From Gemmatimonadaceae bacterium (GTDB taxonomy: Bacteria; Gemmatimonadota; Gemmatimonadetes; Gemmatimonadales; Gemmatimonadaceae), in assembly GCA_025362035.1 (NCBI GenBank), contig JANYIN010000180.1, forward strand, positions 1 to 44,792: 44,792 bases of DNA, written 5' to 3'. Below the pieces are notes generated by a model. It made no database searches and was not told where the DNA came from. It saw only the letters and a list, made by a program, of their open reading frames with translations. This document shows, piece after piece, positions 26,156 to 30,834 of this stretch (position 1 is its first letter; each line of letters opens with the position of its first letter). Position numbers and translations under genes: made by a program.

Positions 26156-27268
26156 TCACCGCCGCATCAACCACCACGTCCGCGCTGCACCACACGCGAT
26201 CGCATGCCGAAAGCGGCCATACGCGCCGCTCGCCCGGTGCGCCGTCTGCAACGACAGCCCTCCCTCACCGCGAGCACCTTCTTCCGCGAGCTTCTCCGCC
26301 CATCGACCACCAGTGGCGTGGCGGGTCGCGACGCGGAGCCGCCAGGAGAGCAGACGGTGCAGGTCCAGGGCGCGATCGCCTTCGCTCCCGAGCGTCCCAA
26401 CAGGAAGCGATCGACCGCTGAGATCGCTCGCTGTGCGCAGCCAGGCGCGCGCGAAGGAGGGGCGGGCGCACTCGGCGGAGCGCAGTCGAACGTTGATGCG
26501 GTCCCAGTCGATCGGCGCACCGGCCGCCAGCAGCGCGGCGACGTCGAGCCAACCACGGAGACACAGCGTTCGCCCGGACTCTTCGACGTTGGCCAGCACG
26601 TGTGTCACCGCATGCCACAGCAGTTCCGTATCGCCCGGAACAGGGCGGGAGGCACCTGCAAAGTCAGCCATGGCACCGTCGAGCATTGCCCGCCGCCACG
26701 CTTCGGACGGCGACACTCTCACTGATGTGGACGTGTGTAGTTCCACCGCGACGCCGAAAGCGCCGAACAGGCCCGGCAGATGATGAGCCTGCCCCGCTGG
26801 CCTCCGCGCGACGTACCCTCGGTCGGAGAGCACCGTCCACGCGCGCGCTGCGTGAGCCGTTTCGACCAGGAGGTCCACGTCGCTCGTCGCCCGTGCGTCC
26901 GCCAAGGGAACGCGAGCCGTGATGCGCCGGAGCACCGCGGCCTTGAGCGGAACAACGGCGATCCCGGCACCGTCGAGGATGGACAACGCGGCGAACGCCT
27001 CCTCGTCCACCCGGAGCGCGCGCGCCGCTGCGGCGCGCGCGGCCGCCGCGATCGTGTCCGCAGCGTTCCCGGGAACGGCAATACCGAGGGCCCGCAGCCG
27101 CCGATGGAGCCAGAGCGACGCGCCTTCCGATTCGGCGACGCGAGCGATGGCGGACGCATCCGATTGTGCCCAACGCGCCGTCATCGAAGCGGCATCCGGC
27201 TCCGGCCAGAACCGCAGCGTGTCGATGAGGAGTCGGGCGTCGCTCACAGCAGGAGGGATCACGGGCAT
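26156..27268 (-). CDS. Nucleotidyltransferase-fold protein of RiPP clusters (NTP_transf_5-like)
   Basis: ATG 27268 overlaps the stop of the upstream B2-like gene as TGATG. The 370-residue product fits the uncharacterised nucleotidyltransferase family often found in lasso-peptide and other RiPP clusters. The nucleotidyltransferase signature is ILDGAGIAVVPLKAAVLRRI, then DARATSDVDLLVETAHA, with Asp residues of SDVD as the likely metal ligands. A helical C-terminal half contains LLWHAVTHVLANVEESGRTL and WLDVAALLAAG. In known clusters its exact role is unsettled. It is the last gene of the operon before a receptor gene in the same direction. Confidence 0.8.
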   Translation of the reverse strand: MPVIPPAVSDARLLIDTLRFWPEPDAASMTARWAQSDASAIARVAESEGASLWLHRRLRALGIAVPGNAADTIAAAARAAAARALRVDEEAFAALSILDGAGIAVVPLKAAVLRRITARVPLADARATSDVDLLVETAHAARAWTVLSDRGYVARRPAGQAHHLPGLFGAFGVAVELHTSTSVRVSPSEAWRRAMLDGAMADFAGASRPVPGDTELLWHAVTHVLANVEESGRTLCLRGWLDVAALLAAGAPIDWDRINVRLRSAECARPSFARAWLRTASDLSGRSLPVGTLGSEGDRALDLHRLLSWRLRVATRHATGGRWAEKLAEEGARGEGGLSLQTAHRASGAYGRFRHAIACGAARTWWLMRR

Positions 27269-27699
27269 CACACCGGCGCGGATGTCTGCGGAAAGCGTGC
27301 GATTTCCTTGAACTCCGCCACACGTTCGCCGCTGCGCGCCGGTTCGAGATAGGGTGCACCGTCGCGGACGAGCCACGCGTGCGCACGCAGGATGCCACCC
27401 GCGTCGCGGCGTACGCCGATGCACAGCGACACCTGTTGCCCGGCACTGCGCAACAGATAGTACAGGACCGTGGCGCGACGCAGGCAACTGTACGTCCATG
27501 GCCTGGGCAAGCGCGCGAGCCACGCGTCCACCCACCGGGCGGCATCACTGTCTTCGGGCCGGTTCCTGGCGTGCACGCGTGCGGCGAGCATCAGCATCCG
27601 TTCCACGACAGCGAACGAGACGATTTCCAGAAGCGGCGGCACGATGGCCACCGCCGTCAGCGCGCGCACGCGCCAGGCCAGCGGAAAGGCGCCGTTCAG
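27268..27699 (-). CDS. Lasso-peptide B2-like leader peptidase (transglutaminase-like)
   Basis: The product of about 143 residues matches the lasso B2 protein. The Cys of YSCLRRATVLYYLLRSAG, the His of LRAHAWLVRDG and an acidic residue in PYLEPA fit a Cys-His-Asp/Glu transglutaminase-like triad. In lasso biosynthesis B2 cuts off the leader with help from the B1 leader-binding protein encoded just upstream. Homology begins at about the CTG at 27699, which overlaps the B1 stop as CTGA and follows GGAGG. A TTG at 27735 would add 12 residues and overlap B1 by 40 bp. No ATG or GTG precedes the conserved region. Confidence 0.82.
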   Translation of the reverse strand: MNGAFPLAWRVRALTAVAIVPPLLEIVSFAVVERMLMLAARVHARNRPEDSDAARWVDAWLARLPRPWTYSCLRRATVLYYLLRSAGQQVSLCIGVRRDAGGILRAHAWLVRDGAPYLEPARSGERVAEFKEIARFPQTSAPV

Positions 27700-27968
27700 C
27701 GTTCCTCCACATGCAGGAGCTTCGATTCGTTGCAAAGGGCAAGGAATCGACGAACGCTCTGCTCGGCGGCGTCAGCGGAGACGTCGTAGTGATCGGTCAC
27801 GGCGACGACCAGTTCCGCAATGCTGCTCGGCTGCTTCAACGCGTCGAGAATCGTCACGCCGGTCTCGTTCACCGAGAAATACTGGCGCGACCCCAGGTGC
27901 AGCACCACGCCCTCGCCGTCCACCGCCGTGACGCGGAGGTCTGGGTGCCGCGAATAGAGCATGGTCAT
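27696..27968 (-). CDS. PqqD-like leader-recognition protein (lasso B1/RRE)
   Basis: The 90-residue product is a PqqD-family RiPP recognition element. The pattern is VTAVDGEGVVLHLGSRQYFS, then VNETGVTILDAL and helix-rich SIAELVVAVTDHYDVSADAA. Such B1 proteins bind the leader of the precursor and hand it to the B2 protease. ATG 27968 overlaps the kinase stop as ATGA, and its own stop overlaps the next gene. That gives a tightly coupled order: kinase, B1, B2. Confidence 0.85.
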   Translation of the reverse strand: MTMLYSRHPDLRVTAVDGEGVVLHLGSRQYFSVNETGVTILDALKQPSSIAELVVAVTDHYDVSADAAEQSVRRFLALCNESKLLHVEER

Positions 27969-28900
27969 TCGATGAGCTCCAGCAAAAGTTCAGGTCGCGA
28001 GAACAAGTCACGCCCCAGTTCGAACCGAAAGCACTGTGCCTGCTCCACGAGTTGCGCCATGAGGCCCAGATGTTCGTCGGCCACGTCCGCCTCCAGCGCG
28101 ACCCAGGGCGAACACTGCATCACGCGCGACAAGGCGTCCGAAGCGCGGATCGAGGTCGCGGATGATCGCCCGTTTGCGCTCACGCTGGTAAAGCCTACGA
28201 CGGCGGGCGTCACGCGAGGAACCCACGTCGCGCCGAGCTCCTCCGCGAACCATCCTGTCTTGCCCCGAGCGGCCAGCGGCGTGCCGCCGTCGTGGTCGAA
28301 AGGGGTGTGCGCATCATCGCGCAACGCCAGCCGCTCGCGCCAGGCGACCACGTCGGTGGTGGACGGGCGCGACCCGGTAACGAGGAACGCACAGTCATCC
28401 GTGCCCATGCCCCACCCATGTCGCGCGAGCAGGGCAGTCGTCGTGGACTTGCCCGATCCGCTCGTCCCGACCAGCAGCCACCCCCGGTCCAATGGGTCAC
28501 GCAGTGTGGCACCGTGCACGTGATGCAGGCCAACGCGCCGCACCAGCAGAATGCAGACGTTCAGGACAAAGGAGCGCAGAAACTCGTTGGGTCGGGCAAG
28601 CGCGGCCTCCGTAACCGTGACCCGAGCCTTTGTGCTCCCTGGCTCGATCACGGCGTGACCGAGACCCGGTCCCCAGTCGAGGACGGCGTTCTCCGTTACG
28701 CCGCGCGTCCGGATGGCCACGCGTCCGGCTTGAAAGACGGCGCGGGAATCCTCGACGGGCTCGGGCAACGGAGCGACGTCGATGACGAGCGCAACGGACC
28801 GCGGAATGGCCAAACGCGACTCGGCCAACCATGCACCCACGAGCGACTGCACGGTGGGGTTGGACGCGCGCAGAGTGACCTCATGCACCATGCTCGGCAA
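27965..28900 (-). CDS. HPr-kinase-like protein associated with RiPP precursor (lasso kinase type)
   Basis: The 311-residue protein holds a P-loop GTSGSGKS at residues 145-152. The glycine-rich region follows LHHVHGATLRD, with a downstream GWGMGTDDCAFLV corresponding to the HprK Walker-like acidic loop. Homologues in lasso clusters (PadeK, ThcoK type) phosphorylate the C-terminal Ser of the precursor, while true HprK acts on HPr. No PTS component is present, so a role on the peptide is the better reading. It follows the precursor gene after an attenuator hairpin. Confidence 0.82.
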   Translation of the reverse strand: MPSMVHEVTLRASNPTVQSLVGAWLAESRLAIPRSVALVIDVAPLPEPVEDSRAVFQAGRVAIRTRGVTENAVLDWGPGLGHAVIEPGSTKARVTVTEAALARPNEFLRSFVLNVCILLVRRVGLHHVHGATLRDPLDRGWLLVGTSGSGKSTTTALLARHGWGMGTDDCAFLVTGSRPSTTDVVAWRERLALRDDAHTPFDHDGGTPLAARGKTGWFAEELGATWVPRVTPAVVGFTSVSANGRSSATSIRASDALSRVMQCSPWVALEADVADEHLGLMAQLVEQAQCFRFELGRDLFSRPELLLELIE

Positions 28901-28911
28901 AGTGATTGGGT

Positions 28912-28948
28912 GAAAAGGGAATCGCCAGCCCGTTGAGGCTGGCGATTC
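28912..28948 (-). terminator. Strong hairpin with T-run between precursor and kinase genes
   Basis: On the minus transcript GAATCGCCAGCC, loop TCAACG, GGCTGGCGATTC forms a 12-bp perfect stem (28919-28948), followed by CCTTTTC. It is 46 bp past the precursor stop and 19 bp before the kinase start. This fits an attenuator that makes the precursor more abundant than the enzymes, as in many RiPP operons. Confidence 0.88.
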
Positions 28949-28994
28949 TCCGACGCGCCGACGACCAACCGCCGGCCCGACCCCGATACCCGAC

Positions 28995-29075
28995 CTAGAT
29001 AATGGTCGAGAGCGTAATCTCCGTGAGCGATGCCTCGATTTTCAACGTGGGCTCTACAAACGGCTTCTTCGTCAT
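28995..29075 (-). CDS. Lasso-type RiPP precursor-like peptide, 26 aa, apparently leader with minimal core
   Basis: A 26-codon gene opens with ATG 29075, 8 nt after an AGGGAG ribosome site, and stops with TAG at 28995-28997. Its residues fit the lasso leader consensus YxxPxLxxxGxxxxxT: Phe6 for Tyr, Pro9, Leu11, Ala15 for Gly, and Thr21 for the conserved -2 Thr. The N-terminus reads MTKKPFVEPTLK. One residue after Thr21 the leader should end. Only Ser23-Thr-Ile-Ile26 remain, whereas lasso cores need 15 or more residues with an acidic residue at position 7-9. Translation past TAG (VGYRGRAGG...) has no such acid and would enter the hairpin. Either the core is truncated or the product is a very short peptide. 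Confidence 0.7.
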   Translation of the reverse strand: MTKKPFVEPTLKIEASLTEITLSTII

Positions 29076-29385
29076 TTACGTCACTCCCTATTCCGAGACA
29101 TGAGCGCCTGTTACAACGTGGAGAGGGCAAGGAGCGGGCCTAACGACGCTTTCTGTAACTCATTTGTTGCCAACACTTACGAGCCACACGTCGCGGTGGT
29201 TGTGTTGCGACTGAGCTACACTTCGTGGCCGAGAGTCGGCAGTCCCGCCCCCACCGTGACGAGCGGCAGCACCCGGCTGCAACTTCGCGCGGTCGATTGA
29301 GCTCCGAAGCGCACCTTCGGCCGTATGGCCTCATGGGCAACGTTACCGAGCCCGATACTGAGAACGGTATCGCCGAAACGCTCGT
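29076..29385. other. Divergent intergenic region, no gene seen
   Basis: These 310 bp separate the RiPP operon (minus strand) from the HD-GYP gene (plus strand). No second precursor or other plausible small ORF was found on either strand. The part around 29150-29215 is poorer in G+C than its surroundings and is the likely place for divergent promoters. No clear -35/-10 pair could be fixed. Confidence 0.6.
29353..29372. promoter_or_regulatory. Inverted repeat 13 bp before the HD-GYP start
   Basis: CGATAC and GTATCG (29353-29358 and 29367-29372) are perfect inverted arms with an 8-bp spacer. The site lies just before the first possible ATG of the HD-GYP gene. It could be an operator or part of a leader hairpin. 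There is no T-run. Weak evidence. Confidence 0.35.
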
Positions 29386-30834
29386 ATGCACGAGCGAACG
29401 GTGAGCCTCTTCCGTACGCACGAAGCCGAACCAGCCGTCATGTCCAAAACAAGGGTCACCCCTCTGTTCACGCCGGCTGTTTCCGGCGCCGCACGCATAA
29501 GCTTGTCCGAGGTCCTGTCCGCGTTGTCGTATGCGTTGGATCTCACCGAAGGCGCAACGGCCGGACACACCATGCGCACCTGCCTCATCGGGATGCGCAT
29601 TGCCGAGCAAGCGGGGATCAACGCGGTGGACCGCTCGGCGCTGTACTACGCGATACTGCTGAAGGATGCCGGGTGTTCGAGCAACGCCGGTCGCATGGCG
29701 TCCCTGTTCGGTGCCGACGACCACTGGGTCAAGCCCCGCATGAAGACGGTGGATTGGCATCAGCGGATCCGCCTCGCCATCACGACCGCGTTCACGGTGG
29801 CTCCGGGACGCTCCCTTCGCGACCGCGCCGATCGATTCTTCACGATCGCGCGCACCGAGAACATGACGCGCGACTTGTTTCTCATTCGATGCGATCGCGG
29901 TGCCTCGATTGCGCGCCAGCTCGGATTTCCGGGCGACACCGCGGAGGCCATCCGTTCGCTGGATGAGCACTGGTGCGGGCTCGGCTACGCCCGCGGACTG
30001 AGCGGCTCCGACATTCCGCTCCTTGCACGCATCGCGAATCTCGCGCAGACGATCGAGGTCTTTCACGATCGCGGTGGGCCGAGCGCGGCGCTCAAGGTCG
30101 CTCGGCGGCGCAGTGGCACCTGGTTCGATCCGGCGCTCGTGCGCATCGTGCAGAGCTGGAAGCGCGACCGGAAGTGGTGGACGTCGCTCGGCGGTGACGT
30201 CACCGCCGCAGTGGTCGCGGCGGAGCCCTCGGATCGCGTCATCAACGTGGACGACGACGGACTCGACGCAGTGTGCAGGGCGTTTGCCGATATCATCGAC
30301 GCGAAGAGCCCATTCACGTATCGCCATTCCACGCGCGTCGCGGACGTGGCTCGCGCTGTCGCGGTGCAGTGCCGCGTGACCGCCGCCGAAGAGCGACGGA
30401 TCTATCGCGCCGGGCTGCTGCACGATATCGGCAAGCTCGGCGTGTCGAATACGATTCTGGACAAGAACGGGCCGATGACTGCCGAGGAGCGGACGGTGAT
30501 GGAACGCCATCCGCGCCATACGCTGGAAATCCTCGAACGCGTCACGGCCTTTCGCCCCTTTGCGTGGACCGCGTCCCTCCATCACGAAAAACTCGACGGC
30601 AGCGGCTATCCCTTCGGGCTGTCGGGCACGGCCATCGATCTGGCATCGAGAATCCTCGTTGTCTCCGACATCTACGATGCGCTGACGTCCGATCGCCCGT
30701 ACCGTGCAGGGATGCCGGAACAGAAGGCGATGGCGATTCTCGAATCGGAACGGGGCGTCAAGCTGTGCCCTGTCGCGCTGGATGCACTCGATGCCGTTCG
30801 TCTCAATGCGTCGCCGCAACGGCTGGCCGTGTAA
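29386..30834 (+). CDS. HD-GYP domain protein (cyclic-di-GMP phosphodiesterase family) with degenerate N-terminal HD domain
   Basis: The C-terminal half is a complete HD-GYP domain: HSTRVADVARAVAV, the metal pair HD in LLHDIGKLG (about residue 346), HHEKLDGSGYPFG (GYP at about 407) and SDIYDALTSDRPYR. The N-terminal half repeats the fold as GHTMRTCLIGMRIAE, but the HD motif is changed to KDAG and the GYP loop is reduced to GLGYARG. This suggests a non-catalytic regulatory lobe. HD-GYP enzymes hydrolyse cyclic-di-GMP to control biofilm and motility. Start is ATG 29386 or 29440, and the second gives a cleaner N-terminus. No output or sensor domain is attached. Confidence 0.9.
   Translation: MHERTVSLFRTHEAEPAVMSKTRVTPLFTPAVSGAARISLSEVLSALSYALDLTEGATAGHTMRTCLIGMRIAEQAGINAVDRSALYYAILLKDAGCSSNAGRMASLFGADDHWVKPRMKTVDWHQRIRLAITTAFTVAPGRSLRDRADRFFTIARTENMTRDLFLIRCDRGASIARQLGFPGDTAEAIRSLDEHWCGLGYARGLSGSDIPLLARIANLAQTIEVFHDRGGPSAALKVARRRSGTWFDPALVRIVQSWKRDRKWWTSLGGDVTAAVVAAEPSDRVINVDDDGLDAVCRAFADIIDAKSPFTYRHSTRVADVARAVAVQCRVTAAEERRIYRAGLLHDIGKLGVSNTILDKNGPMTAEERTVMERHPRHTLEILERVTAFRPFAWTASLHHEKLDGSGYPFGLSGTAIDLASRILVVSDIYDALTSDRPYRAGMPEQKAMAILESERGVKLCPVALDALDAVRLNASPQRLAV

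Follow-up and report, generated by a model that had tools for sequence, protein, structure and literature searches.

A 26-residue open reading frame of a Gemmatimonadaceae bacterium is a genuine gene, not a decayed one, and we estimate at roughly three in four the probability that it encodes the precursor for a lasso-derived RiPP pathway that lacks a cyclase and releases a short linear phosphopeptide. The frame lies in a stretch of DNA of 44,792 nucleotides that was analysed as a whole (the window), where it is the first of five genes on the minus strand, followed by the genes for an HprK-like kinase, a B1 protein (RiPP recognition element, RRE), a leader peptidase of the B2 type and an NTP_transf_5 protein, some of them overlapping (Table 1). 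Rather than being broken, this cassette probably makes very short linear peptides tagged with phosphate.

Table 1. Features of the cassette, in positions of the window.
Feature	Position	Strand	Remarks
Precursor peptide gene, 26 aa	28995..29075	-	Leader MTKKPFVEPTLKIEASLTEITL and predicted core STII; border set by the lasso T(-2) rule
Perfect hairpin, 12 bp, then CCTTTT	28919..28948	-	Between precursor stop and kinase, 46 nt past the stop
HprK-like peptide kinase	27965..28888	-	ORF opens at 28900 (TTG); likely start GTG 28888
B1, PqqD-like RiPP recognition element	27696..27968	-	PqqD E 4.2e-15
B2 lasso leader peptidase, transglutaminase-like	27268..27735	-	NF033537 60.2 bits (cut-off 33)
NTP_transf_5, nucleotidyltransferase-like	26156..27271	-	PF14907 E 2.6e-26; ORF opens at 27535

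Translation of the minus strand at window:28995-29075 gives MTKKPFVEPTLKIEASLTEITLSTII and a stop. An earlier note, made from the sequence by itself, had described this frame as a lasso-type precursor with five leader residues at the consensus spacing, a strong ribosome site and a TAG stop, and this description stands. Phe6, Pro9, Leu11, Ala15 and Thr21 are all present in the translation, its F-P-L-T series has the spacing of Tyr(-17), Pro(-14), Leu(-12) and Thr(-2) in PMC10368454, the stop at 28995-28997 is TAG, and the ribosome site GGGAG lies 5' of the ATG (AATAGGGAGTGACGTAAATG). Among small ORFs preceded by a ribosome-site-like word, it is the sole match in the window to the pattern [FY]..P.L.{9}T, and the same scan returned no ORF from 40 first-order Markov simulations of the window. 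Over 17 codons of the leader, the window and a related locus (L025) differ by 10 synonymous and 2 non-synonymous codons, as expected of a translated peptide under selection. The note had also allowed for a sequencing error at the TAG. This is unlikely, because the two most similar precursors, from L025 and L102 (ending in TEITL-SAGIPG and TEITL-SGNGIQL), are likewise short, with 6 and 7 core residues before a TAA stop. Read-through or recoding of the TAG was also considered and rejected, since related precursors end at comparable places with TAA, TGA or TAG.

Relatives were gathered through the kinase, by searches of 60 genomes (16 matches at 1e-3), of 298 genomes of the phylum (10 matches at 1e-20) and of 288 genomes of the order (32 matches at 1e-15), each count including the window's own genome, and by a pattern search of a contig collection (18 loci, the seven strongest all from Gemmatimonadota). 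The gene order kinase-B1-B2-NTP_transf_5 occurs in 12 distinct Gemmatimonadota loci (the window, L025, L026, L027 with L028, L029, L047, L048, L102, L104, L106, L107 and L129), where we treat L027 and L028, from a split assembly, as the two parts of a single locus and places found twice (L045, L046, L049, L050, L103, L105, L137) were counted once. Loci with a distant kinase (L030-L044, L108, L130-L136, L052-L058, L060-L062), as well as L059, were left out of the counts. Some of the distant kinase loci (L135, L037, L035 minus strand; L039:1761) carry another type of precursor, with RPW/LPW..P.L leaders ending in LTL or LTQ and longer tails; in L035 and L039, B1 was matched and B2 was not. L038 (G001:C160) has a strong B2 match on one strand and a distant match to the kinase on the other, and the precursor patterns found none there.

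Comparing the C-termini of the precursors in these relatives, as the earlier note had proposed, shows that short cores recur. Eighteen precursors were recovered, 17 of them in 11 of the 12 loci and one in L051, where only the kinase was matched; the contig of L048 begins just ahead of its kinase, and that locus therefore gives none. Leader patterns found 14, and the other four (in L107, L106 and L129) were picked by eye in ORF lists, so that the counts of leader conservation are partly selected for by the search motif. The distance from Phe to the predicted cut is 17 residues in 16 precursors, the outliers being L026 (15; core border placed by hand) and L028 (18, with Ala at -2). Within the 16 leaders of standard spacing, F(-17), L(-6) and T(-2) are invariant, helped by the search motif, while L(-12) is kept in 15, E(-9) and A(-8) in 14 each, and P(-14) in 13, giving the family pattern FVxPxLxxEASLxxxTL. 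Mean identity among these 16 precursors is 0.59 in the leader versus 0.13 in the core. The predicted cores span 4 to 40 residues with a median of 9, 14 of the 18 have at most 12, and STII is the shortest of all; short cores in other species end with TAA, TAG and TGA. L029 has four tandem precursor copies with four different tails, and in L104 the copies lie more than 2 kb from the kinase. A conserved leader, variable short tails and tandem copies are what a family of RiPP precursors would show, and not what decay would leave.

The decayed core that the earlier note had offered as one of its two readings is thus contradicted. A former lasso cluster with a truncated core, or with an error at the TAG, would fit a core of just four residues behind a lasso-type leader and beside lasso-type B1 and B2, but we regard this as exceedingly improbable: the leader is kept in 18 precursors from 12 loci and is under protein-level selection, cores of 12 residues or fewer recur across these loci with all three stop codons, no cyclase gene was found in the available flanks, and the reading frames of the enzyme genes that were compared are intact, with changes in excess at third positions in all five gene comparisons made.

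The cores also differ from those of lasso peptides in the residue that would close the ring. An acid at core position 7-9 is absent in 13 of the 18 precursors, STII included, is the last residue in two, and has a tail behind it in three (L107 D7, L106 D9, L051 E8). The earlier note had regarded orthologues with a core of 15-25 residues and an acid at 7-9 as evidence against a short product; one such precursor exists, L107 5897 (19 residues, D7), and it adjoins a paralogue with a 9-residue core lacking the acid, while L106 (40 residues) and the kinase-only L051 (27 residues) come near to it. The 40-residue tail in L106 (L106:1858-2058) is rich in Gly-His repeats (HSGGAGHGDGGDLHGHGHGHELGHGHGHDRLPTHGHGGGF), a composition that suggests metal binding. 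The core in L051 (L051:5735-6992) has two Cys, and B1, B2 and NTP_transf_5 were unmatched in that locus.

An Asn_synthase-like ORF, as expected for a macrolactam cyclase, was found in none of the 12 loci within the available sequence, the flanks being short for L047, L048, L104 and L129. As a positive control, the PF00733 search recovers the cyclase inside a B1-B2-C-precursor-K-NTP cluster of a relative (G018), and a second control is the PF00733 match beside B2 in G001. This G018 cluster, L044 (G018:C23:73000-88000), is of the lasso type and occurs in the same family; its precursor has the core SNPLPHKQDKDGLPSTKT, with 18 residues and D9. On the contig that carries the operon, there is no PF00733 match in G000, G001, G006, G033, G133, G152 and G188 (G376 left out), and where an operon contig does carry the domain (G109, G040), more than 80 kb lie between it and the operon. 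The B2 of the operon is the only B2 in the genome in nine of ten genomes. A real lasso pathway with its cyclase encoded elsewhere in the genome would agree with the three cores that have both acid and tail, with the more distant domains of G040 and G109, and with seven PF00733 matches in the window's own genome, all on other contigs. Three of these seven are long, but they start with MCGI and sit among flippase-, glycosyltransferase- and heparinase-like neighbours, judged by eye to be surroundings of the polysaccharide type; moreover, the draft assemblies G060, G061, G062 and G188 show short, partial matches only, and cores of 4-9 residues cannot hold a ring of 7-9 with a tail. We hence consider a cyclase at another site highly unlikely. 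The earlier assignment to lasso peptides fits for the leader, B1 and B2, and fails for the product. With no cyclase gene found in the loci and, in nine of ten genomes, no B2 outside the operon, the cassette works like a pathway for phosphorylated lasso peptides in which the ring is never closed.

The kinase is matched weakly by sequence models (NCBIfam HprK_rel_A 26.1 bits, cut-off 200; Pfam Hpr_kinase_C 15.8 bits, cut-off 33.3), and its profile, run against PDB sequences, gives mostly P-loop transporter matches. More telling is the fold search with the predicted structure (pLDDT 89.9), in which PEP carboxykinases come first (best E 6.2e-6, TM-score 0.51 on the query), followed by HPr kinases (best E 7.5e-5, TM-score 0.28). 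PEPCK and HPr kinase share one fold. Counterparts of H148, G163, G168, K169, S170, D186 and D187 of BsfK, as numbered in PMC10368454, are invariant in the eight aligned kinases, in which they were placed by eye, and that of G166 is Cys in some relatives. The B1 proteins keep a Tyr-Phe pair in all 12 loci, and LppB lacks the Tyr at the aligned site. A Tyr of the RRE (Tyr33 of FusE) contacts Thr(-2) according to work cited in PMC10368454, and we read the Tyr of the pair, on alignment, as presumably the same residue. Against PDB sequences, B2 had no match up to E 1. The Cys of its CL[RK]R motif and the His of AHAWL, which we take to be the catalytic residues, are kept in 12 of 12 loci. NTP_transf_5 likely starts at GTG 27271 or ATG 27268, overlapping the B2 stop; K and DVD are invariant in the seven sequences aligned, and a weak fold search (best E 0.021) points to nucleotidyltransferase-like proteins, with about 50 submitted residues ahead of the likely start that were modelled poorly.

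All 18 precursors have a Ser within core residues 1-5, at a position that varies from 1 to 5. When residues are shuffled within each core, the mean number of precursors with an early Ser is 12.5, and 4 of 10,000 trials attain 18; shuffling pooled cores gives a mean of 9.6, and none of 10,000 trials attains 18. These figures are not strict probabilities because the precursor sequences are related. This Ser also bears on whether the product might instead come from another part of the peptide, such as the conserved EEAS stretch, in the manner of PQQ, with the tail as waste. The high conservation of E(-9) and A(-8) beside tails that vary would suit such a product, yet the tail keeps a Ser in every one of the 18 precursors, and by Pfam none of the four cassette enzymes is oxidative or a radical SAM enzyme; this origin of the product is distinctly unlikely.

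In the cyclase-free pathway that we favour, B1 would bind the FxxPxL leader, and the HprK-like kinase would phosphorylate an early Ser of the core, perhaps repeatedly; in STII, the acceptor is by analogy likely Ser1 or Thr2. B2, guided by B1, would then cut after T(-2)-L(-1) and leave a linear four-residue peptide, to whose phosphate NTP_transf_5 may add a hexose or a nucleotide, if it acts like PsmN. No ring would be closed, as there is neither a cyclase nor an acceptor acid. The second reading in the earlier note, a RiPP with a very short and possibly phosphorylated product, agrees with the gene content, the predicted PEPCK/HPr-kinase-like fold and the early Ser; its chemistry, that is phosphorylation, the cleavage site and further modification, is what we infer from them. 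To our knowledge, no B1/B2 pathway has a smaller predicted core than STII, and we know of no precedent for a four-residue B2 product.

Linear polyphosphorylated peptides (LPP) of Bacillota, described for the lpp cluster of Paenibacillus alginolyticus, are the nearest published kind (Popov et al. 2026, PMC13381572). Both systems combine a precursor, an HprK-like kinase, a discrete RRE and an NTP transferase with no macrolactam cyclase, and both precursors have an N-terminal leader motif of the YxxP type and a variable C-terminus (PMC13381572). In the LPP system, LppK puts several phosphates on core Ser3, and deletion of the NTP transferase caused no detectable change (PMC13381572). The differences are as clear. 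Where LPP clusters have a SipW-like peptidase and an MsbA-like exporter (PMC13381572), the Gemmatimonadota cassette has B2, and neither of the former was found among 28 chosen window ORFs scanned with Pfam. LPP precursors are 35-200 aa long and the one tested has a core of 45 aa (PMC13381572), versus whole precursors of 26-66 aa and cores mostly below 13 in the Gemmatimonadota family, and the LPP leader YxxPxVLxHQxIxFETxxS (PMC13381572) does not match FVxPxLxxEASLxxxTL. In a comparison by profile, a seven-sequence B1 profile of the cassette favours PbaB1 (E 5.2e-10) and TbiB1 (3.7e-9), then TfuB1 (2.8e-4), over LppB (9x8z; 0.02).

The phosphorylated lasso peptides BsfA (PMC10368454), paeninodin and pseudomycoidin (PMC9266682) share B1, B2 and the kinase with the cassette, and pseudomycoidin also an NTP transferase homologue. 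BsfK phosphorylates core Ser3, aided by B1, and cleavage by B2 likewise depends on B1 (PMC10368454); for pseudomycoidin, PsmN is linked to hexoses on the phosphate (PMC9266682). Their leader, YxxPxL...(-2), has the same spacing as FxxPxL...T(-2) here, with Tyr or Trp in place of our Phe, but a cyclase and a ring acid, both part of those pathways, are lacking in the Gemmatimonadota cassette. Of the lasso features, we thus find the [YFW]xxPxL leader (with Phe) with T(-2), the B1 RRE and the B2 peptidase, and lack the cyclase in the 12 loci and, in STII, the acid at 7-9 with a threaded tail. The HprK-related kinase A system (TIGR04352/TIGR04353) shows a weak likeness by model scores, with 26.1 of 200 bits for the kinase and 25.5 of 35 bits for the PqqD protein, both below cut-off.

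The cassette works like an LPP pathway or a phosphorylated-lasso pathway halted before cyclisation, and by the features tested it is a member of neither. It is apparently an undescribed, B2-type, short-core variant of the LPP kind: 'Gemmatimonad' is absent from the main text of PMC13381572, and full-text searches of open-licence literature show no cyclase-free K-B1-B2-NTP operon in Gemmatimonadota among the matches listed. Our reading is that it arose independently of the Bacillota LPPs. We lean, by a little, towards a class of RiPPs in Gemmatimonadota that descends separately from lasso machinery, kept the leader, B1 and B2, dropped the cyclase, and makes ultra-short (mostly 4-12 residues) linear phospho- or glycophosphopeptides, convergent with the LPPs. 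If so, the leader-peptidase machinery of lasso peptides does not depend on the closing of a ring, and phosphopeptide pathways that lack a cyclase may have more than one origin, with a SipW type in Bacillota and a B2 type in Gemmatimonadota. RiPP precursors would then also extend below the sizes that core-length rules expect. Natural cores of 4-40 residues are, in addition, a ready substrate panel for the requirements of B1, B2 and the kinase.

The hairpin behind the precursor has counterparts at a like place, with stems of 12-13 pairs, in five further loci (L025, L102, L028, L026, L129), and L047 has an unlike 12-bp stem. In an alignment of these six hairpins, chosen as such, 5 of 12 pairs have changes on both sides; of five measures taken on it, all but one lie above every one of 500 shuffles. 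This strong hairpin behind the stop would suit a small ORF that serves a transcription attenuator as its regulatory leader peptide and is not a substrate, but the tandem L029 copies with different tails, the 40-residue variant of L106 and the L104 copies far from their kinase argue against it, as do the resemblance of the leader to those bound by lasso B1 proteins and the lack, counting perfect stems only, of any stem of at least 7 pairs in the 130 nt past the stop in L029, L104, L106, L107 and L051. Such a role for the ORF is very improbable. Next to a precursor gene that encodes a substrate, the hairpin is perhaps an attenuator or an RNA-processing or 3'-end signal, and it may determine how much precursor message there is relative to that of the enzymes. 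Neither a sigma-70-like promoter nor a U-tract terminator scored in 28880-29400, and Rfam gave nothing up to E 0.1 in 28600-29500.

On its other side, the cassette adjoins a gene for a TonB-dependent receptor (window:23973-26090; best NCBIfam match PqqU, 352.9 bits, cut-off 1200). We rejected it as a cassette part, since it occurs in nine of ten genomes of the genus, six of them without the cassette kinase; among those six, G008 has only a distant kinase match (E 3.7e-12). HD matches are absent from the available stretches of the cassette-free loci L147, L148, L150, L151 and L152, which for L150 and L151 reach about 1 kb or less on that side. In G009 (L149), the HD and TonB genes adjoin, their homologous stretches 192 bp apart, so that on the basis of this single site the unit missing there runs from the precursor to NTP_transf_5. 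Near the end of the window (window:42435-44209) lies a pair of an ECF sigma factor and a zinc-finger (zf-HC2) protein.
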